A model generated the notes under the pieces. It did not search any database. It was not told where the DNA came from and saw nothing but the letters and a program-made list of their open reading frames with translations. Position numbers and translations under genes: made by a program. Positions 7,318-26,699 of a stretch of 26,699 nucleotides of DNA are shown here, one piece after another. Every line of letters begins with the position of its first letter. The first letter of the stretch is position 1. This stretch comes from a virus, in IMG/VR virus record IMGVR_UViG_3300032294_003186, positions 1 through 26,699 of that record; one strand, 5' to 3'.

Positions 7318-7788
7318 ATGGCAGAAGGAGTAACATATGGTATATATTTCCCCTTTAGGAATTCAACCCGAGGGGATTATTTAGCTCTGACAGAATTAGA
7401 GTCTGAAGAAATAAAATCAGATTTAATTCATCTTTTATTAACAAGAAAAGGTTCAAGATATTTTTTACCTGATTTTGGAACTAGATTATATGAATTCATA
7501 TTCGAACCTTTCGATGGATTAACTTTCGATGCAATACAGTCAGATATAAGAGATTCAGTTGCAAAATATATGCCGAACTTATTGCTCAATAATATTACAA
7601 TTACACCTTTGGACCCACAGGAAGAATATGACATTGATACAAATCAAGCAGTAATTGGAAGTTCAGAATCACCAATATATAGATTCCCTGGTAAAGGAAC
7701 TGCAGAATATACCGCTAAAATCAAAATAGATTATTCAAATAATAAAAACACGTTTGCTCAAAGTGATTTTATTATAATCAATATTTAA
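7318..7788 (+). CDS. 25: gp25-like baseplate wedge protein (GPW/gp25 family)
   Basis: This 156-residue protein belongs to the gp25/W family, which nucleates sheath assembly on the baseplate in contractile tails. The diagnostic central stretch is clear: LTRKGSRYFLPDFGTRLYEF split as LTRKGSRYF (41-49) and LPDFGTRLYEFIFEPFD (50-66), then a helix (about 70-86) and NITITPLDP. Length agrees with the family (about 130). Residues 103-140 add a less conserved strand-rich tail. gp6 follows after a five-base gap, matching the common pairing of gp25 and gp6/J-like genes in contractile systems. This gene opens the structural region. Confidence 0.9.
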   Translation: MAEGVTYGIYFPFRNSTRGDYLALTELESEEIKSDLIHLLLTRKGSRYFLPDFGTRLYEFIFEPFDGLTFDAIQSDIRDSVAKYMPNLLLNNITITPLDPQEEYDIDTNQAVIGSSESPIYRFPGKGTAEYTAKIKIDYSNNKNTFAQSDFIIINI

Positions 7789-7793
7789 TAATA

Positions 7794-9632
7794 ATGGCAA
7801 ATCGTAAAATATCATATACAACCAGAGACTTTCAGGGAATTAGAACTGAACTTCTTAATTACGTAAGAACGTATTATCCTGAGTTAATTCAGGACTTTAA
7901 TGACGCCTCTGTGTTTTCGGTATTCATTGACCTCAATGCTGCTGTTGCCGATAACTTAAATTACCATATTGATAGAAGTGTACAAGAGACAGTTCTTCAG
8001 TATGCACAACAAAGGTCTTCAATTTATAACATTGCCAGAACTTACGGACTCAAACTACCAGGACAAAGACCTTCAGTTGCTCTTGTAGATTTTTCAATCA
8101 CAGTTCCAGCGTTTGGTGACAAAGAAGATGAAAGATATCTTGGAATCTTAACTAGAGGTTCACAAGTAACAGGTGCGGGTATTGTGTTCGAGAACATTTA
8201 TGATGTGGATTTTTCCTCACCATACAACGCACAAGGGTTTCCAAATAGACTTAAAATTCCAAACTTCAACGCCAACAACGTTTTAGTTAATTATACAATT
8301 ACAAAAAGAGAGTTGGTTGTTAATGGTATTACCAAAGTATTCAAAAAAGTAATTACGCCAAATGATGTCGTTCCATTTTTTGAACTATTCTTACCTGAAA
8401 AAAATGTTTTAGGTATTACAAGTGTTTTACTTAAAAGCGGAACCGAATACACAAACATACCAACAGCGGCAGAATTCTTAGGAGTTTCAAATAGATGGTA
8501 TGAAGTTGATGCTTTAGCGGAAGATAGAGTTTTTGTTGAAGACCCGACAAAAGTATCTGACCAACCAGGAATTAAAGTTGGAAGATATATTCAGACTTCT
8601 AATAGATTTATGAGTGAATATACGTCAGAAGGGTTTAAGAAAATGACTTTTGGTGGTGGTACAAATACGGCTCAAGATGCTCTTGACCAATTCACAACTT
8701 TAGGTACAACTTTGGATTTACAAAGATATTCTAATAATTTCTCACTTGGCTCGACATTGATACCTAACTCAACGTTATTTGTTCAATATAGAGTGGGTGG
8801 TGGTTTGGCTACAAACTTAGGTACAAATGTTATCAATCAGATTGGTACCGTTGCATTATTTGTTAATGGTCCTTCGGAATTGACAAACTCATCAGTGGTC
8901 AATTCTTTAAGAGCTAATAACGTGACAGCGGCCGTAGGAGGTGCTGGTATACCTTCATTAGAAGAAATTAGAAATTATGTTTCATTCAACTTCTCAGCCC
9001 AAAAAAGAGCGGTAACAGTACAAGATTATGAATCAATCATAAGAAATATGCCATCAGAGTTTGGAGCACCTGCAAAGGTTTCAGTAACTGAAAACGATAA
9101 TAAAATATTAATTCAACTTTTATCTTACGATACATCAGGAAGGCTCACAAATATTGTTTCAAATACATTAAGACAAAACATTGCCAACTATCTATCAAAT
9201 TATAGAATGATGAATGACTACATTTCAATCTTAACTGCTGAGGTAATTGACTTGAGTGTAGAAGTTTCAATCGTTTTAGATTCTGCGCAAAACTCAGGAC
9301 AAGTAATTGCAAATGTTATTGACAGAATTTCAACATACTTCAATCCACAAACTAGACAACTTGGACAAAATGTATATCTTTCAGAGTTAAGTAGTATTAT
9401 TCAAACACAGAATGGTGTTTTGACAGTTGCAGGACTAAATGTTTACAACTTAGTTGGAGGACAATACTCATCTGCAGAAACCTCAATGGAATACTCTGAC
9501 CCTGAAACGAAGAAGATTTTACCTGTGGATGATACTATCTTTGCACAACCTTCTCAGGTTTACCAAATTAGATATCCTAATAAGGATATTAAAGTTTCAG
9601 TCAAAAATTTCCAATCAGTTACATTCTCTTAA
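7794..9632 (+). CDS. 6: gp6-like baseplate wedge protein (baseplate J family)
   Basis: This 612-residue protein fits gp6, the baseplate wedge component that links wedges into a ring (related to J of Mu/P2). Signs are the N-terminal block beginning ISYTTRDFQGIRTELLNYVR with a conserved helix (VFIDLNAAVADNLNYHIDRS, about 42-61), a beta-rich middle, and a C-terminal block with the baseplate-J-like sequence SLEEIRNYVSFNFSAQKRAV near residues 385-405 followed by TVQDYESIIRNM. Length is close to T4 gp6 (660). It directly follows gp25. After its stop is a 94-base gap with no gene, so it probably ends a transcription unit. Confidence 0.88.
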   Translation: MANRKISYTTRDFQGIRTELLNYVRTYYPELIQDFNDASVFSVFIDLNAAVADNLNYHIDRSVQETVLQYAQQRSSIYNIARTYGLKLPGQRPSVALVDFSITVPAFGDKEDERYLGILTRGSQVTGAGIVFENIYDVDFSSPYNAQGFPNRLKIPNFNANNVLVNYTITKRELVVNGITKVFKKVITPNDVVPFFELFLPEKNVLGITSVLLKSGTEYTNIPTAAEFLGVSNRWYEVDALAEDRVFVEDPTKVSDQPGIKVGRYIQTSNRFMSEYTSEGFKKMTFGGGTNTAQDALDQFTTLGTTLDLQRYSNNFSLGSTLIPNSTLFVQYRVGGGLATNLGTNVINQIGTVALFVNGPSELTNSSVVNSLRANNVTAAVGGAGIPSLEEIRNYVSFNFSAQKRAVTVQDYESIIRNMPSEFGAPAKVSVTENDNKILIQLLSYDTSGRLTNIVSNTLRQNIANYLSNYRMMNDYISILTAEVIDLSVEVSIVLDSAQNSGQVIANVIDRISTYFNPQTRQLGQNVYLSELSSIIQTQNGVLTVAGLNVYNLVGGQYSSAETSMEYSDPETKKILPVDDTIFAQPSQVYQIRYPNKDIKVSVKNFQSVTFS

Positions 9633-18303: not shown

Positions 18304-19212
18304 ATGGCGATAGGTTCATATGGTACAATAAGACCAAGTGATGTTTCACCTTCAGATGTTGAGATTATCATGAATTATACGGCATCTCGAGATGTGACTG
18401 ACTCTTTTGTCCTGACTAAATTAGATGCCCAAACGATATTAAGACCGTATTTCAATAATAGTGAAACAGGGGGTAATGCTGGTGTAGAGGTCTTGGGAGG
18501 ACTTTACAACTTAACTCTACCCGCAAATCAGTTCAATGCCTTAGGGATTTATACTCTTTATTTAAGACCTGTGCAAATCAGAACCGTTATAACGGACTGT
18601 GGTGTCTTAAGTGCCTTACCAAACGTAAAAGGTTTGGTTATCGATATATCAAATGTTCCGACACAATTTGTTAACAAATTTGTTGCACAAGGATTGGTTG
18701 GATTCAGAGTTGAATATCTTAATGCGGATGGTTCTAAAATACCTAACTTCTTTAGAGTGGTAACCTCAAGTTTCTTTTGTGAGCCTGTTGTAACCAATGA
18801 AGTGAACACAACTCAAAAAGCAATCAGATATAGATATGTTGACGGAGATTCTAATCTTTTATTTTTAACTTTATCACCATCATCATCACCAACAAACAAA
18901 CCAAACGCGACTCCATTTATTGGACAGCCGAATCAAGATATTATTATAACAAATACATTCTTTAATCCTGTAACTATAGAAATTGAGATGGTTGAATATG
19001 ATGTATCATCTCTTGCAATTGCACTTTATGGTAATCAGACTAAGTCTATTGATGACGGTATTTACACCATTTACGATAGTCAAAATAACATATACAAACA
19101 GTACAACTTATACGAAATCAGAGACCAATTTAATGCATTATTATATGAGGTTAGACAGAGTAGAGGTAATAACATTGATTTTAGTAAAAATTTCACATCA
19201 ATAACTAGCTAA
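18304..19212 (+). CDS. Putative virion structural protein, 302 residues
   Basis: I cannot name this protein. It opens with MAIGSYGTIRPSDVSPSDVE and has Ig-like strand patterns: FVLTKLDAQTILRPYF near residues 36-51, LYNLTLPANQFNALGIYTLY near 67-86 and a Ser/Pro/Asn-rich linker (SPSSSPTNKPNATP, about 193-206). The C-terminal part returns to YTIYDSQNNIYKQYNLYEIR and ends in a polar helix. There are few cysteines and no membrane segment. It leads a four-gene overlapped unit, and its stop overlaps the next ATG by one base (TAATG). The layout suggests a tail-tip or baseplate attachment protein for the larger proteins encoded after it. Confidence 0.6.
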   Translation: MAIGSYGTIRPSDVSPSDVEIIMNYTASRDVTDSFVLTKLDAQTILRPYFNNSETGGNAGVEVLGGLYNLTLPANQFNALGIYTLYLRPVQIRTVITDCGVLSALPNVKGLVIDISNVPTQFVNKFVAQGLVGFRVEYLNADGSKIPNFFRVVTSSFFCEPVVTNEVNTTQKAIRYRYVDGDSNLLFLTLSPSSSPTNKPNATPFIGQPNQDIIITNTFFNPVTIEIEMVEYDVSSLAIALYGNQTKSIDDGIYTIYDSQNNIYKQYNLYEIRDQFNALLYEVRQSRGNNIDFSKNFTSITS

Positions 19213-22200
19213 TGGCGACAACGATTAGGACGACAAAATATTTTTATCCACCAAGACCAGGTAGTGGTGCGGCTACTTTTTCAGACAACATTGTAGGATT
19301 GCAAACTGTTGAAGGGGGAGGTTTGACCCAAGGAAACTTCGAGTTCACTACCTCAGTTGTTGAAAAGGTTAGTAGAAAATTTAATGTTGGTGCGTTTTCG
19401 GAACCAATTAATTTGGGGGATTTGGATATCGATGATTTGGCACAGAGTAGAGCAATCCTTGCAACTCAATTTAGGGTTTATCCGAATTATGATGTTTCAC
19501 AGGTTCTGAACTTTTCAATGTATGGTTCTTTGGCGAAAAGATTTCAGGTATCTGTTACCAAAATTATTAATTATTTTCCTGCGTCTTTGGACGTTTTATC
19601 CACAAATTTATTTTTCGAAACAGGGTCAACAGCAGTCAACATTTCATATGACTCAGTTATGGATGAAACGTATTTCGAGGTAAATGTTGATAGGATTAAT
19701 AATCCATTTGATATTGATTATTCAGTTAGTGCTTCAACTAATCTGAATGTTCGCGAGATACAAGTTTCGAAATATAGAAATTTGTACAACACATATTTGG
19801 ATTATTGTATTTCGATAACTAATAGTGGTAATACTGAAAACCCTTATGACATTTATAAAGTGGTTTCATTTTCACCGTCTCAAACGTTAAGTTCAGGATA
19901 CATTGCATTTTATGTTTCAGGTGCGCCATTCGGTACTACTGCAACCACTTACAATGAAAATTTTCAAATAAGACCGAATGATTATATTGCGGACAAAGTT
20001 TTTGCGGAAGACTTTGATGAAGTGGAAAAATTCATTCTTAATAGATTAGTAAGACCAGAATACACCGCAACCTTCCAAGTACCAGCCCAATCTGAAAATG
20101 GTGAATTTTATACTGATTATCAAGAAGTAACTTGGCCAAAAGACGGTCCTTGGAACTTAGATATTAGGTCATTTTTATTTGACAACTATTTGGCTCAATT
20201 GGAGGCAATTGCTGTTAATTTAGATTCTTTCAAGACAAACCTTATTTCAAGATTTTTAATTACAGATTCATTCAAAGAATTCGACACCTTAAATCAAAAG
20301 GTAGAAAAGATTTTACAAATATATGGTAGAAGTTTCGACCAAATCAAACAGTTCATTGATTCTTTGGCATACATGAACTCTGTGAATTATAATCCTGAGA
20401 ACGACATTCCATCACAGTTATTAGTAAATTTAGCACAAACTTTGGGTTGGTCTTCAAATTTTTCACCGATAACAAACGAAGATTTTTTAAGTTCAGTTTT
20501 TGGTAACACACAAACACCGACTTATCCTGGTTACGCTAGAGCCCAAACACCAACAGAGTTAAATTATGCTTACTATAGAAATTTAATCATGAACGCTTCA
20601 TATCTTTTCAAGTCAAAAGGAACAAGAAGGTCTGTTGAATTTTTATTAAGAATGATTGGTGCCCCTGAGTCATTAGTAGAATATAATGAACACATTTATC
20701 TTGCAGACCAAAAGATAAATATGGATTCGTTCTTTGACCAATGGGCTCAAATTTCAGGTGGTACATATGTACAAACATCTCCGAGTTATGATGAGGGAAA
20801 TACCTACAAAATTAAAGGTATGACTTTCACAGCCATTACATCAACAGACACATATACAGACGTTTCGATTAGACTACAGGACTATCCTGTTGATGATTTA
20901 GGGTTTCCGAAGGCGCCAATCAATACTGAAACTTACTTTTTCCAGTTAGGTGCGGGTTGGTATGAACAAACACCACAACACAGAAGTCCTGATGAAGTGG
21001 TTATTACGGGAGATGTATACACTGGTCAAAACTTTTCAATTCAAACACAACTTCAACCGTTCACGTATGGACAACCCTATCTTGATAGATTTAGAAGTTT
21101 CCCTTACATGACAGAAGGATTCAAACTCCAAAAAGTTGTTGATAATAAAAAGTCGTGGTTGGAAGAAGATAATAGAATAAGGGTTGCGGTTGATGGAGAC
21201 TATGATGCTTATTATTTTGTTGATGATGAGAAATTAGTTTTGAATGTCAAAAACGTAGATTTATTCTTGAATCCATCACAGGGTATGGCATACGATGTAT
21301 GGGTTCAATCTGTTAGAAATGATTATCCAATACCTGAATCAGGACTTACGGTTGGTTATCCTGTTCCTGGTGGTGTGGATTGGACATATGTTGACCCTAA
21401 GCCAAAACAAAAAACATTCTTTGAATTCTACCAAACATTTTGGGAGAATATGATTAATGTCAGAAACAGACAATATATCTCAGATGGTAAGACGGGAGGA
21501 TATCCAACACTACAATCTATTTGGTGGAAGTATATTGAACAAGAACAAACTATTAATGTTCCGAATAACAAATACACATATCAAAAACTAATTGATTATG
21601 TAAATGGTATCGGTCCTTATTGGATGAAGTTGATTGAACAGATGATTCCTGCAACAACGATTTGGAATACAGGGGTTAGAATGGAAAACTCAATCTTCCA
21701 AAAACAAAAGTTTGTTTATAGAAGACAAAGAGGTTGTGAATTTATTCCAGTCCCTGTCGAACCTTGTTTCATTATCTCGAATATTTTCGATTTCACTTGT
21801 GCGGCAGAATACGTTGATTTTTTCATTTTCCCATGGTTAAATGGAAATACTAATGTAAGTAACTTCGATAGTATTTTAGCGAATAGAATTAATAGTTTCT
21901 TAGCAACAAATAATTTAACGTTGAATGATTGTATAGAAAGTTCAACTCAAACAGAGTGGTTTGTTGATTTGAGAATTGGTGGGGATATAATTATACAGGA
22001 ACCTTTTTATAGTGGATATGGATACACTGACGTACCAACCAATCAGATGTGGAGAAGTGCGTTGATTCAATACCTCCCTAATTTATATGATTATGGATTC
22101 ACTTATTTCCTTAACGGTAATAATTTAACTATAACAAGTTTAACATGTGAGACAAGAAACTTAGAAGAAACAGTTTCATTAAACGTAGGAATAAATATAA

Positions 22201-22217
22201 GTATTAATTGTAACTAA
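19212..22217 (+). CDS. Large baseplate/tail-tip structural protein, 1001 residues
   Basis: This is probably a central host-contact scaffold. The first 330 residues are beta-rich. A helical block (about 330-490) contains QLLVNLAQTLGW and SKGTRRSVEFLLRMIGAPE, a pattern that recalls the P2 gpI-like tail protein family, where a helix pair precedes a Gly-Ala-Pro turn; I offer that only as a possible relation. Near 740-850 is an aromatic, charged region with FWENMINVRNRQYI, then GPYWMKLIEQMIPATTIWNT and QKQKFVYRRQRGC, which has the look of a strongly conserved core. The C-terminal 150 residues hold paired cysteines and Asn-rich strands. Start and stop both use the TAATG junction with neighbours. 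The function is inferred from size, composition and position before the fibre-like genes. Confidence 0.62.
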   Translation: MATTIRTTKYFYPPRPGSGAATFSDNIVGLQTVEGGGLTQGNFEFTTSVVEKVSRKFNVGAFSEPINLGDLDIDDLAQSRAILATQFRVYPNYDVSQVLNFSMYGSLAKRFQVSVTKIINYFPASLDVLSTNLFFETGSTAVNISYDSVMDETYFEVNVDRINNPFDIDYSVSASTNLNVREIQVSKYRNLYNTYLDYCISITNSGNTENPYDIYKVVSFSPSQTLSSGYIAFYVSGAPFGTTATTYNENFQIRPNDYIADKVFAEDFDEVEKFILNRLVRPEYTATFQVPAQSENGEFYTDYQEVTWPKDGPWNLDIRSFLFDNYLAQLEAIAVNLDSFKTNLISRFLITDSFKEFDTLNQKVEKILQIYGRSFDQIKQFIDSLAYMNSVNYNPENDIPSQLLVNLAQTLGWSSNFSPITNEDFLSSVFGNTQTPTYPGYARAQTPTELNYAYYRNLIMNASYLFKSKGTRRSVEFLLRMIGAPESLVEYNEHIYLADQKINMDSFFDQWAQISGGTYVQTSPSYDEGNTYKIKGMTFTAITSTDTYTDVSIRLQDYPVDDLGFPKAPINTETYFFQLGAGWYEQTPQHRSPDEVVITGDVYTGQNFSIQTQLQPFTYGQPYLDRFRSFPYMTEGFKLQKVVDNKKSWLEEDNRIRVAVDGDYDAYYFVDDEKLVLNVKNVDLFLNPSQGMAYDVWVQSVRNDYPIPESGLTVGYPVPGGVDWTYVDPKPKQKTFFEFYQTFWENMINVRNRQYISDGKTGGYPTLQSIWWKYIEQEQTINVPNNKYTYQKLIDYVNGIGPYWMKLIEQMIPATTIWNTGVRMENSIFQKQKFVYRRQRGCEFIPVPVEPCFIISNIFDFTCAAEYVDFFIFPWLNGNTNVSNFDSILANRINSFLATNNLTLNDCIESSTQTEWFVDLRIGGDIIIQEPFYSGYGYTDVPTNQMWRSALIQYLPNLYDYGFTYFLNGNNLTITSLTCETRNLEETVSLNVGINISINCN

Positions 22218-24358
22218 TGGCGACATTCAATTATTTGGTAAATGTAACGGGTGATTGTTCCCAAAATAGCTCTGGTATTATCAGTGTTTTACCATTCGGT
22301 GGAACACCTCCGTATACCGTAGATTGGTACAGTCCATCATTACCTCCAGCAAATATTGTAAGTGGAACCGCATCACAAAGAACAGGATTACCGTTCGGAA
22401 CTTATTCAATTAGACTTAATGATAGTTCCTTACCAACCAACAACGAATTTTTCATAAATGTTCCTGTTTCAAGTGGGGTTTGTGCAAATGTCGTATCAGT
22501 TCAAAACAGTACATGTGGTTTCAATAATGGCTCCGTAGTGTTAGGGTCATCAAGTTTATACTCCTCAACGAGTTTTCTCGTTTATTCTGGTAACGGAACT
22601 TTTATTAGTTCAGGAACAACAACCAATCAATCTACAATTACCATAGGTAACTTAACGGCAGGTACTTACTATGCTGTTGCGGTAGATATTGGAGGTTGTA
22701 GTGGTAAGAGCCAAAATTTTGTAGTTAACACATCATCACAATTAGATTTTGGATTATATATTGTCCCAAATTCCACTTGTGCAAACATACCGAATGGTAA
22801 AATATTTGTTTCAGGACAAACAGGAACTGGACCTTATACTTATCTTTGGAGTAATAGTGCGACAACTGATTCGATATCGGGTTTAACACAAGGTAGTTAT
22901 TCTGTAACCGTTACTGATTTTTATGGTTGTTCACAATCAAAGACAGGAATTGTTGATGTTGTATTACCAATTGGTATTGGTACAGTCACAAGTCAACCGC
23001 CAACATGTTTTTTGAATAATGGTTCTGTAACAGTGACTGTTACTGGCGGTACTTCACCATTCTATTATTCAGCATCGACAGGAAATGTTTTGGTATCTTA
23101 TTCCCGTGAATACACCCTCTCAGGTTTATCGTCGGGGAGTTATCAAATTTTAGTGACAGATTCAGGTTTATGTACTGTCACTGGTAATGCAACCTTACAA
23201 ACACCTGAAGGAATTGCTCAGGTTAGCGTGATTGGACAAAGTTCAAGTTGTTCAAGCACCAATGGTTCCATATCAATTAGTTTAACAGGAGGGGTAACAC
23301 CTTACACATATACTTTGATATATCCTGACTTGACACAACAAAATATAATCACACAACAAACCGCACAGATATTTTCTGATTTAGCATCAGGTGATTATAC
23401 TGTGATTGTGAGTGATAGTTCAAACTGTACATATTCACAAGATGTCATACTGGTCACAGAAAATAAGTTTACAATATCCACAGTGGTCACACCTACAACT
23501 TGTGGTCAAAGTAACGGACAAATTTTGATAACATCAACATCAGGGGCTACATTACCGATTGATTATTCTGTTGATGGCATATTTCAAGTTATCGACACGA
23601 CATTAAGTGCCGTTACATTTACAAATATTTCACCAGGTCCTCATATCGTAAACGTAACAGATGCGTCGGGATGTGTTCAAACTGCAAATGTGTATGTACC
23701 AACAAGTGAGGTATTGGATTTCTCTTTATATAGTACGTCTTGTGGTAATGGAAACAATGGTTCTATTACAGCATTTATTTCTTCAGGTAATCCACCTTTT
23801 ACATTCAATTGGTCCGATAATATTCCATCGAACCCACAACAAATTCAAGTAAGTGGATTGACAGCTGGAACTTACAATGTGATTATAACAGATGTTGATG
23901 GATGTAGTCAAAACAGAAGCACTACCATTGAGTGTTCAACTAATTATGTTTCTTACCAAACATATGTAATGGGTTCTGAGATATTCAATGTTAATTCACC
24001 TGTAAAACTCGGATTGTTACAAATGTTGAATGAAGGATATTTCGATTTGACATCAGGAAATACAAACTGTAACTTGGTTTCTGCGAATTATTTTGCCAAC
24101 GTTTCCATGATACCTGCGGGATATAGTGCATCTACAAATTTTTATACGACAACATCATTGAATGATGCGCCAAGTGATAATTTATATTATAATAATGTTA
24201 GAAACTTATTATTGAGTATACCTGGCATTGGTTCCGTAACCATAAATCAATTAACGAATCAGATAACAATTTCGACAATACCTGGCAACAATGCTGCGAT
24301 AGGACAAACGATTGTTATAGATATTGTTATAGTGTATGATATAATGTGTTTAACATGA
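22217..24358 (+). CDS. Tail fibre/adhesin with seven SprB-like repeats
   Basis: This 713-residue protein is built of seven degenerate repeats of about 75-83 residues (roughly 7-84, 89-172, 177-249, 252-331, 333-415, 417-497, 499-573) and a separate C-terminal domain (about 575-713). Each repeat has the SprB pattern: Cys, NGS, a GG-x-PP/SPY-T/F strand, then L-x-x-G-x-Y-x-V-x-V-x-D-x-x-G-C. Six repeats have two cysteines 50-61 residues apart (for example 100/161, 188/238, 429/486), likely an intradomain disulphide. SprB repeats are known from gliding-motility adhesins of Flavobacteriia, so a flavobacterial host is implied. There is no signal peptide, which fits a virion protein released by lysis. 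It would extend from the tail tip and touch the cell surface, or mimic host adhesins. The stop overlaps the next gene by four bases. Confidence 0.78.
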   Translation: MATFNYLVNVTGDCSQNSSGIISVLPFGGTPPYTVDWYSPSLPPANIVSGTASQRTGLPFGTYSIRLNDSSLPTNNEFFINVPVSSGVCANVVSVQNSTCGFNNGSVVLGSSSLYSSTSFLVYSGNGTFISSGTTTNQSTITIGNLTAGTYYAVAVDIGGCSGKSQNFVVNTSSQLDFGLYIVPNSTCANIPNGKIFVSGQTGTGPYTYLWSNSATTDSISGLTQGSYSVTVTDFYGCSQSKTGIVDVVLPIGIGTVTSQPPTCFLNNGSVTVTVTGGTSPFYYSASTGNVLVSYSREYTLSGLSSGSYQILVTDSGLCTVTGNATLQTPEGIAQVSVIGQSSSCSSTNGSISISLTGGVTPYTYTLIYPDLTQQNIITQQTAQIFSDLASGDYTVIVSDSSNCTYSQDVILVTENKFTISTVVTPTTCGQSNGQILITSTSGATLPIDYSVDGIFQVIDTTLSAVTFTNISPGPHIVNVTDASGCVQTANVYVPTSEVLDFSLYSTSCGNGNNGSITAFISSGNPPFTFNWSDNIPSNPQQIQVSGLTAGTYNVIITDVDGCSQNRSTTIECSTNYVSYQTYVMGSEIFNVNSPVKLGLLQMLNEGYFDLTSGNTNCNLVSANYFANVSMIPAGYSASTNFYTTTSLNDAPSDNLYYNNVRNLLLSIPGIGSVTINQLTNQITISTIPGNNAAIGQTIVIDIVIVYDIMCLT
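22235..23935 (+). repeat. Seven tandem SprB-like protein repeats
   Basis: The repeats are clear at protein level but diverged in DNA, so they are old rather than recently copied. The best recognised units are 3 (STCANIPNGKIFVSG, then GPYTYLWSNS, then GSYSVTVTDFYGC) and 7 (TSCGNGNNGSITAFISSG, then PPFTFNWSDN, then GTYNVIITDVDGC). Confidence 0.75.
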
Positions 24359-24792
24359 CGCAGGTAAGAATAACAGACATATCAGGAGGTACATATCCGA
24401 TTAATGTTTACATAGCAGATGTTTATGGAAATAATCAAAGTTTACTTGGTGTAATCAATACTGGACCTGTTCCGCCAACAGTAGAGTATAATACTGTAAT
24501 TCCTTCAATTTTCGAGACCGCTCCTGAAATAATGTTATTGTTAGTGGATGCGAATAATTGTCAAGTCTTCAAAATATTACAATGTACTTTTGGTTGTACT
24601 TTCCAAATTACAATTCAATTGGAAAGTTGTGTTGTCGATATTGATATACAGAATTCATCATGTGTTTTTGGGGTAACTTTAGCTGACCCAAGTTGTTTCA
24701 TTAATGGTCTTAAATTATCAGACCCAAGTTGTTTAATTGATAGTGTTAATCTACTTAATCCAAGTTGTTCAATTGATGGTGTGTCTATTTAA
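24355..24792 (+). CDS. Small protein with an 11-12 residue cysteine ladder
   Basis: This 145-residue protein is unknown to me. Residues 1-77 look like a small Ig-like domain (PINVYIADVYGNNQSLLGVI near 15-34) ending in Cys77. The second half is a tandem repeat: cysteines at 81, 92, 103, 114, 126 and 138 are spaced 11, 11, 11, 12 and 12 residues, each in a unit of the form Asp/Asn-Pro/Ser-Ser-Cys followed by alternating hydrophobic residues (for example DPSCFINGLKLS). This periodicity suggests short stacked beta strands, perhaps a trimeric or solenoid needle with a line of cysteines. I prefer ATG 24355, overlapping the upstream stop as ATGA, to GTG 24346. It lies between two adhesin-like genes, so it may be a fibre-tip or connector protein. 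Confidence 0.65.
   Translation: MTQVRITDISGGTYPINVYIADVYGNNQSLLGVINTGPVPPTVEYNTVIPSIFETAPEIMLLLVDANNCQVFKILQCTFGCTFQITIQLESCVVDIDIQNSSCVFGVTLADPSCFINGLKLSDPSCLIDSVNLLNPSCSIDGVSI
24652..24789 (+). repeat. Tandem 33-36 bp repeats encoding the cysteine ladder
   Basis: Four DNA units are recognisable: 24652-24684 (33 bp), 24685-24720 (36), 24721-24756 (36) and 24757-24789 (33). The last three share CCAAGTTGTTYAATTGAT-like sequence with few changes, so they are recent duplications. Confidence 0.7.
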
Positions 24793-24845
24793 TCAAAGTT
24801 GCTAAAATAATTTGGAATTAAGCTCATTAAATAATATTCACGCGG

Positions 24846-24869: not shown

Positions 24870-26699
24870 ATGTCTCTATATACTATATTAGTCGTTAATA
24901 ACGCACCTGGTTGTAACACGGAAGTTGAACAACAAGTTACCGTAACAGGATGTACAACATACATTGTAAGATTAGCATCGAATTCGAATGCATTAGGTCC
25001 TTTCAGTATTTATATTGATTCATCATTATTTGGTTCAGGATACACTAGAACTGACATGTTCAATGGTGTGGTTGTATCATTAGAATGTGCAACACCAACG
25101 CCAACACCAACACCTTCATCGACACCTCCTGGAGCTACTCCAACAAACACGCCGACAAATACTGAGACTCCAACACAAACTCCAACACCTACTCAAACAC
25201 CATCAAATACTACAACACAAACTCCAACACCATCAATTACTGCAAGTCAAACTCAGACTCCAACTCAAACTAACACTCAAACACCAACAAATACTGCAAG
25301 TCAAACCGAGACTCCAACTCAGACACCTTCTCAGACACCGACTACAACTCCAACATTGAGTCCAGGTGCAACTCCAAACCCAACAAGTTCACCTACACCA
25401 ACTAATACTGAAACTCCAACACAAACTCCGACTAACACTGCAACATTAACACCAACTAATACTGCAACAGAAACTCCAACACAAACTCCAACACAGACTG
25501 AAACTCCAACACAAACTCCAAGTGTTACTCCTACATTAACGCCAACAAACACAATATCACAAACTCCAACAAATACTGAAACTCCAACTCAGACTCCGAC
25601 AAATACTGAGACTCCAACACAAACTCCAACTGAAACTCCAACACAAACTCCAACATTGAGTCCTGGAGCAACTCCTGCGGAAACACCAACTTCAACTCCG
25701 ACTCCATCAGTAACACCGTCAATAACACCTTCTGAAACACCAACTAACACTCCAACAAATACTGAGACTTCAACTCCAACTCCAACTGAGACTCCAACAT
25801 TAACACCAACAAATACGGCATCACAAACTCCGACTCAGACAGCTACACAAACTGAAACTCCAACACAAACTCCAAGTGTTACTCCTACATTAACGCCTAC
25901 AAATACAATAACACAAACACCTACTAATACTGAAACTCAAACACAAACTCCAAGTGAGACTCCAACAAACACACCTACTCCAAGTATTACTGCATCTCAA
26001 ACACCAACACCAACTGAAACTCCAACTCAGACACCTAGTGAAACTGCAACTCAGACACCAACTAATACTGAAACACCAACACCAACTCCAAGTGAGACTC
26101 CAACACAAACTCCAACAGAGACTGCGACTCAAACACCGACACCATCTGAAACTCCAACTCAGACACCAACTCAAACTATAACTCAGACACCGACTAACAC
26201 AGTAACGACTACAACTACACCGACTCCAACACCGACTAGACAACCGTTATTTGCTTACTTAACAATTGAACCTCAAGGACAAGCATCAACTTTCAACGGA
26301 TGGATGGCATCTCAAGGTTCAACATGGCGTGGTTTCTGGACTGGTGGAGCAACAGTTGCTAACCCTGTAACATTCAACCAACAGTTTAATTCGTACTTGA
26401 ACTACTCTGGATGGGGAGGAAACGCACCTGCAATTATCACAGGTACAATCTCTCCAACATCAGGAGGGAACGATACCTTTGGAAATCCAATTCAAGCTTA
26501 CTTATTCCAAACTACGCAAGTATCTGCAGGAACTACACCTACCTTAGCGTGGTATACTTGGTACGTTTCGACAGGAGCTACGAACGGTCAAATTATGACT
26601 CAAGTTGGTACAAATACTGCAAATAATCCAAACGCATTAGTCTCAAGAAATATGAACTCAGGTTATTATAATAATATAGTGACTTACACAGGTTCAACA
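24870..26699 (+). CDS. Giant Thr/Pro-repeat adhesin or tail fibre (partial, continues past window)
   Basis: An uninterrupted frame of 610 codons runs from ATG 24870 to the last base of the window, so the C-terminus is missing. Residues 1-73 form a compact N-terminal module ([20 protein letters not shown] near 18-37, then [19 protein letters not shown] near 45-63) ending in a cysteine. Residues 75-456 are a low-complexity stalk in which nearly every second residue is Thr and Pro recurs about every fourth, as [12 protein letters not shown]-like units. It contains no Lys, Arg, His, Cys or aromatic residue. Residues 457 onward are a Gly/Asn/Ser/Trp-rich globular domain ([16 protein letters not shown] near 476-491) that looks like a receptor-binding or adhesive head. 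There is no signal peptide. The stalk resembles mucin-like extended linkers. The other frames and the opposite strand across the repeat are also open, but only because the repeat lacks stops. Confidence 0.8.
25092..26237 (+). repeat. Thr-X-Thr-Pro coding repeat, 382 codons
   Basis: The DNA is a degenerate tandem of ACN CCN ACN NNN codons (period 12, sub-period 6) with very few G residues on this strand. X is mostly Gln, Asn or Glu, sometimes Pro, Ser, Ala, Leu, Val or Ile. Larger duplicated blocks exist: 47 bases are the same at 25497-25543 and 25851-25897, and a TLSPGATP block occurs near 25353 and 25653. Confidence 0.9.

Follow-up and report, generated by a model that had tools for sequence, protein, structure and literature searches.

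The locus and its open reading frame

The source record, a 26,699-base piece of virus DNA, ends inside the gene for the stalk protein described here, and "the window" below means this whole stretch. The features considered are as follows:

7318..9632, + strand: baseplate wedge genes, gp25-like and gp6/Baseplate_J-like (phrog_261, 4.2e-18; phrog_219, 7.2e-26; PF04865, 6.1e-07)
19212..22217, + strand: 1001-aa protein of the baseplate/tail module (77.8% identity in relative L008; weak match to Microcystis phage Mel-JY01)
22217..24358, + strand: 713-aa protein with SprB repeats, Ig-like (six stretches of PF13573, E=2.7e-29)
24355..24792, + strand: small conserved protein directly upstream of the stalk gene (~75% identity and same position in L008)
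24870..26699, + strand: open reading frame of 610 codons from ATG, open at the contig end
24870..25088, + strand: N-terminal module (N-module), 73 aa, conserved putative anchor (51-88% identity; 81 IMG/VR loci; model)
25089..26237, + strand: Thr-X-Thr-Pro stalk, 383 aa, residues 74-456, assigned by composition and alternation; putative spacer and recombination junction
26238..26699, + strand: head domain, first 154 of ~188 aa, clipped by the contig end (heads in other contigs)

The stalk gene lies beside baseplate and tail genes on the same strand, as is expected of modular tail-fibre proteins, and its position is that of tail-fibre genes in a contractile-tail module. Where the contigs of relatives reach, gene order is constant: the SprB-repeat protein (~710 aa), the small protein, the stalk protein and a giant Gly-rich collagen-like protein, whose gene starts 15-55 nt after the stalk gene. 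The SprB-repeat protein was present in 12 of 12 longer relative contigs, and the small protein is the upstream neighbour in the relatives' loci as well. The collagen-like gene is absent from the window, and we infer its presence next to the stalk gene from the relatives, in which the protein has its own C-terminal domain. One such protein (L007:8578-13170) has 1530 aa, every third of them Gly (GSSGTSGSNGTDG repeats); these repeats are probably why many relative contigs are broken within or close to the gene. Within the window, a ~36-nt tandem repeat at 24688-24801, near the end of the small-protein gene, encodes 12-aa units of DPSCxIDxVxL-like sequence and is almost the sole repeat outside the stalk.

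Six SprB repeats in a phage protein (22217-24358) point to Bacteroidota as a possible host phylum; the family is otherwise named after a gliding-motility adhesin. A host-phylum check gave matches in none of 14 control genomes, one of them a Bacteroides, and helicase identity to Microcystis and Flavobacterium phages is only ~27%.

The initial annotation had described the frame as lacking a stop in the window, and it does run open to the contig end over 610 aa. Complete close relatives place the expected stop ~34 codons past the window end, and the full-length protein should have roughly 644 aa. Close relatives end in ...IPxGTYRVYTTYS..FRINASxNNIYFKGNTL*, of which YFKGNTL is conserved. Since the head is kept in relatives, the early stop with no conserved head that had been named as a counter-argument is not what we find. 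The relatives likewise support the predicted plan of a phage structural-type protein, with a small N-module, an extended stalk and a conserved head.

Composition and variation of stalk, anchor and head

The stalk consists of T168 P82 Q33 S26 E21 N20 A14 I6 L6 V4 G3 and is without D, K, R, H, C, F, W or Y, so that the earlier statement that basic residues, aromatic residues and cysteine are excluded is borne out by the residue counts. It is the longest stretch free of D/K/R/F/W/Y/C/H in any frame of the window, at 383 aa (382 in the initial annotation), with a runner-up of 39 aa. Thr or Ser occupies 181 of 192 alternate positions, compared with a mean of 101 and a maximum of 115 in 10,000 composition shuffles; the alternation of Thr is indeed nearly perfect. 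The stalk had also been called slightly acidic: acidic it is, although a net charge of -21 is hardly slight. Thr, Pro and Ser make up 276 of the 383 residues, a richness typical of mucin-type proteins, and the Gly-X-Y triplets of collagen-like fibres are absent (T-X-T-P; 3 Gly in 383 aa). PHROG 15511 (unknown function) matches the stalk at 2e-14, through the low-complexity region only, and is uninformative on anchor and head. At repeated stalk residues the same-codon rate is 0.37-0.54, against ~0.48 for random codon usage. Codons are thus randomised within the repeat; the array is therefore old at the DNA level and maintained at the protein level, which rules out recent slippage or a slippage artefact.

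A search of IMG/VR with the N-module returned 81 relatives, of which 80 were kept, giving 51 distinct proteins with 50 reaching the stalk. The head retrieved nine contigs as a single sequence and 14 as a profile. The anchor-stalk-head plan is common to nearly all complete family members. As the initial annotation had suggested might be the case, stalk length differs among related phages, from 68 to 500 aa with a median of 283 (47 complete proteins, stalk segments summed). The contigs L090 and L091 have 0 mismatches over 6,000 nt upstream, yet a single in-frame insertion of 174 nt sets their stalks apart; an assembly collapse of the repeat could also account for it. Pooled over the family, the stalk is 47% Thr and 21% Pro, with Asn, Gln, Ser and Glu at ~5-8% each; Cys is absent, and none of Asp, Lys, Arg, His, Phe and Tyr exceeds 0.2%. 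A domain of 60-100 aa interrupts the stalk midway in L025, L027, L034, L064 (residues ~98-188) and L076, and a different C-terminal domain ends L071 and L088.

T-X-T-P arrays occur often among viral contigs, with at least 120 pattern matches, and an alternating stalk of at least 40 aa was present in 47 of 80 loci. Three other viral contigs (L124, L140, L142), found by DNA pattern and not by the N-module, carry T-X-T-P stalks of 392-476 aa. Among the isolated phages of INPHARED there was no relative by anchor, head or N-terminal domain of the next protein. A set with one genome per prokaryote species likewise gave no match with head or anchor, which disfavours a prophage or host gene.

The N-module is 51-88% identical among 35 diverse sequences and has three invariant Cys (15, 28, 73); its model is beta-rich (pLDDT 87.8), with no PDB match for the model or by sequence profile. 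The window head is 50-84% identical to heads in other contigs, and over the family heads range from 22 to 88%. A conserved N-terminal anchor combined with a divergent C-terminal domain is the arrangement of modular tail-fibre proteins and adhesins. The head of a relative was modelled with confidence (pLDDT 93.3, pTM 0.90). Against the PDB this model gave no match at E<=0.001 (best TM ~0.3), and a profile search likewise gave none; in BFVD the single match was the uncharacterised A0A6J5L892 (TM 0.93). Pfam matches to heads were sub-threshold only, and PHROGs gave no match to one head and the N-module. The head is thus a confidently predicted domain without a solved counterpart, and because neither model matches the PDB, the tail-fibre role draws no support from any fibre fold.

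Exchange of a cassette across a gene boundary

Pairwise distances over 42 loci showed that the head varies together with the N-terminal 220 aa of the next protein (r=0.88), compared with r=0.25 for its own N-module and r=0.24 for the SprB-repeat protein. In a sliding scan of 35 loci, correlation with the head was 0.07-0.32 across the SprB-repeat protein and the N-module, 0.91-0.96 within the head and 0.64-0.88 for the next protein's residues 1-160, before falling to 0.53, 0.30, 0.22, 0.09 and below. The co-varying block therefore stops at about residue 180 of the next protein, which is an internal domain border and not the gene end. The same borders are visible in DNA: L029 and L033 are 94-100% identical to mid-stalk, ~50-68% identical in the head and next N-terminal domain, and 91-93% identical thereafter. 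The pairs L029/L069 and L033/L049 have the reverse pattern, and L046/L047 are also complementary. The window is itself a mosaic, with upstream DNA nearest to L028 (81%) and a head that is 50% identical to that of L028 and 84% to that of L046. Together these data show that related phages exchanged the head together with the beginning of the next fibre gene as one cassette. As the head shares its history with the start of the next protein and not with its own anchor, the stalk is the recombination junction and the swapped unit crosses the gene boundary. This crossover zone had been missed in the initial annotation, as had the additional T-X-T-P proteins and the glycan-biosynthesis cluster of relatives described below.

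These data allow us to propose that the gene product is probably of the tail-fibre type and belongs to a T4-like phage with a contractile tail. On the baseplate side, the 73-aa N-module would serve as the anchor, and the Thr-X-Thr-Pro stalk would be an unstructured, extended spacer that determines reach and can accommodate changes in length. At 0.31 nm per residue in polyproline II, the 383 residues would span at most about 120 nm. Its protein-level repetition should let crossovers inside the stalk preserve frame and function. The head would form a joint to which the giant collagen-like fibre protein docks by its N-terminal domain, the two proteins would be consecutive segments of one appendage, and the head would be swapped together with the opening ~180 residues of the next protein while the anchor is retained. 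A place in the virion, an extended conformation and an effect on host range would belong to this model. Joint exchange up to an internal domain border suggests mutual fit, as in consecutive fibre segments; however, because the head adjoins the next N-terminal domain, linkage alone, without contact, could produce the same co-segregation, and docking is accordingly a tentative part of the model that could well prove wrong. If correct, the model offers a simple way to remodel a fibre without breaking its assembly, in which a protein-level repeat may serve as a safe crossover zone and interacting domains on either side of a gene boundary move together.

The head could instead be the receptor-binding tip of a stand-alone short fibre, with the next N-terminal domain travelling along by adjacency and the types being too divergent for crossovers between the two. 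That heads are far more diverse (22-88%) than anchors (51-88%) is typical of receptor-binding domains, and a low-complexity array beside a variable domain is found in antireceptors of S. thermophilus phages (PMC5601072). We nevertheless think this reading unlikely, given that co-variation stops at a domain border within the next protein (~residue 180) and that the far larger collagen-like protein, with a C-terminal domain of its own, is the more obvious tip. Changes in array length between close relatives would also fit a neutral expansion of a DNA repeat without a role. This reading, already disfavoured, is very improbable: the repeat codons are randomised and yet Thr alternation is maintained, Cys is absent from 50 of 50 stalks, basic and aromatic residues are absent from nearly all, and Thr spacing holds family-wide.

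Another reading is that phage-encoded enzymes O-glycosylate the stalk to give a mucin-like, protease-resistant or glycan-displaying virion surface. In 7 of the 12 longest relatives a GT2 enzyme scored above the family cut-off, each within ~6-12 kb of further T-X-T-P proteins, and in two relatives the cluster comprises GT2, GT11, GT10, DegT aminotransferases, epimerases and a GDP-mannose 4,6-dehydratase. Simple hydropathy found no multi-pass export protein in that cluster, which fits cytoplasmic glycosylation of virion proteins, and mycobacteriophage virions are reported to be glycosylated by phage glycosyltransferases (Freeman 2023, cited in PMC11256854). Such clusters could, however, modify DNA or the host surface instead, and glycosyltransferases were not significantly associated with T-X-T-P stalks in general, with GT2 in 10 of 27 unrelated T-X-T-P contigs and 4 of 21 control contigs with the reversed pattern (one-sided Fisher p=0.15). 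The window holds no such sugar or glycosyltransferase gene; glycosylation of this stalk is therefore a possibility, and in our judgement a doubtful one. That widespread uncultivated phages both glycosylate their own T-X-T-P tail appendages with such a cluster and retarget by a two-gene cassette through stalk crossovers seems more doubtful still. Thr-rich stalks near a phage glycan-synthesis cluster nonetheless make virion glycosylation in uncultivated phages testable.

The glycan cluster spans ~25 genes in two phage contigs (L113:14844-20000, L114:1-15532, L115:12429-20000, L116:1-11253). Longer relatives also have a second T-X-T-P locus (L113:6028-12038 and L115:1261-9591, both - strand), in which one protein has Laminin_G_3 domains, and these phages seem to use T-X-T-P as a general-purpose linker. 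It had been proposed that the stalk avoids the Asp-Ser/Thr glycosylation system of Bacteroidota hosts. The stalk indeed has no Asp and no D-S/T-(A/I/L/V/M/T) site, and within the family such a site occurs solely in L090 and its near-identical counterpart L091. The avoidance argument itself carries little weight, since no signal peptide is evident in the protein, and a virion protein assembled in the cytoplasm should in any case not encounter a periplasmic system.

Comparison with known fibre systems

In the T4-type long tail fibre (gp34-gp37), consecutive proteins encoded beside baseplate genes are joined end to end. This is a proposed analogy only, as we found no relation of sequence or fold to the stalk protein. 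Antireceptors of S. thermophilus phages have collagen-like repeats beside variable regions (VR2), according to PMC5601072, citing Duplessis & Moineau 2001. They resemble the stalk protein in that a low-complexity array parts constant from exchangeable domains, and differ in being Gly-X-Y rather than Thr-X-Thr-Pro, whereas here the swapped unit also runs into the next gene. The collagen-like side tail fibre proteins of E. coli prophages (EPclP) similarly have a repeat stalk and modular ends thought to be reshuffled by recombination, but are triple-helical collagen with unrelated end domains and no Thr-Pro stalk (PMC3368898). In a survey of 102 phage proteomes the longest low-complexity region was 115 aa (PMC6821194), and the literature we searched gave no description of Thr-X-Thr-Pro phage stalks. 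A repeat stalk adjoining exchangeable adhesin domains, with collagen-like repeats, is already known (PMC5601072, PMC3368898). New here are the Thr-Pro version of the stalk, a cassette that extends across a gene boundary and an unmatched head fold. The proposed exchange offers a concrete, testable route by which phages could change their fibres.
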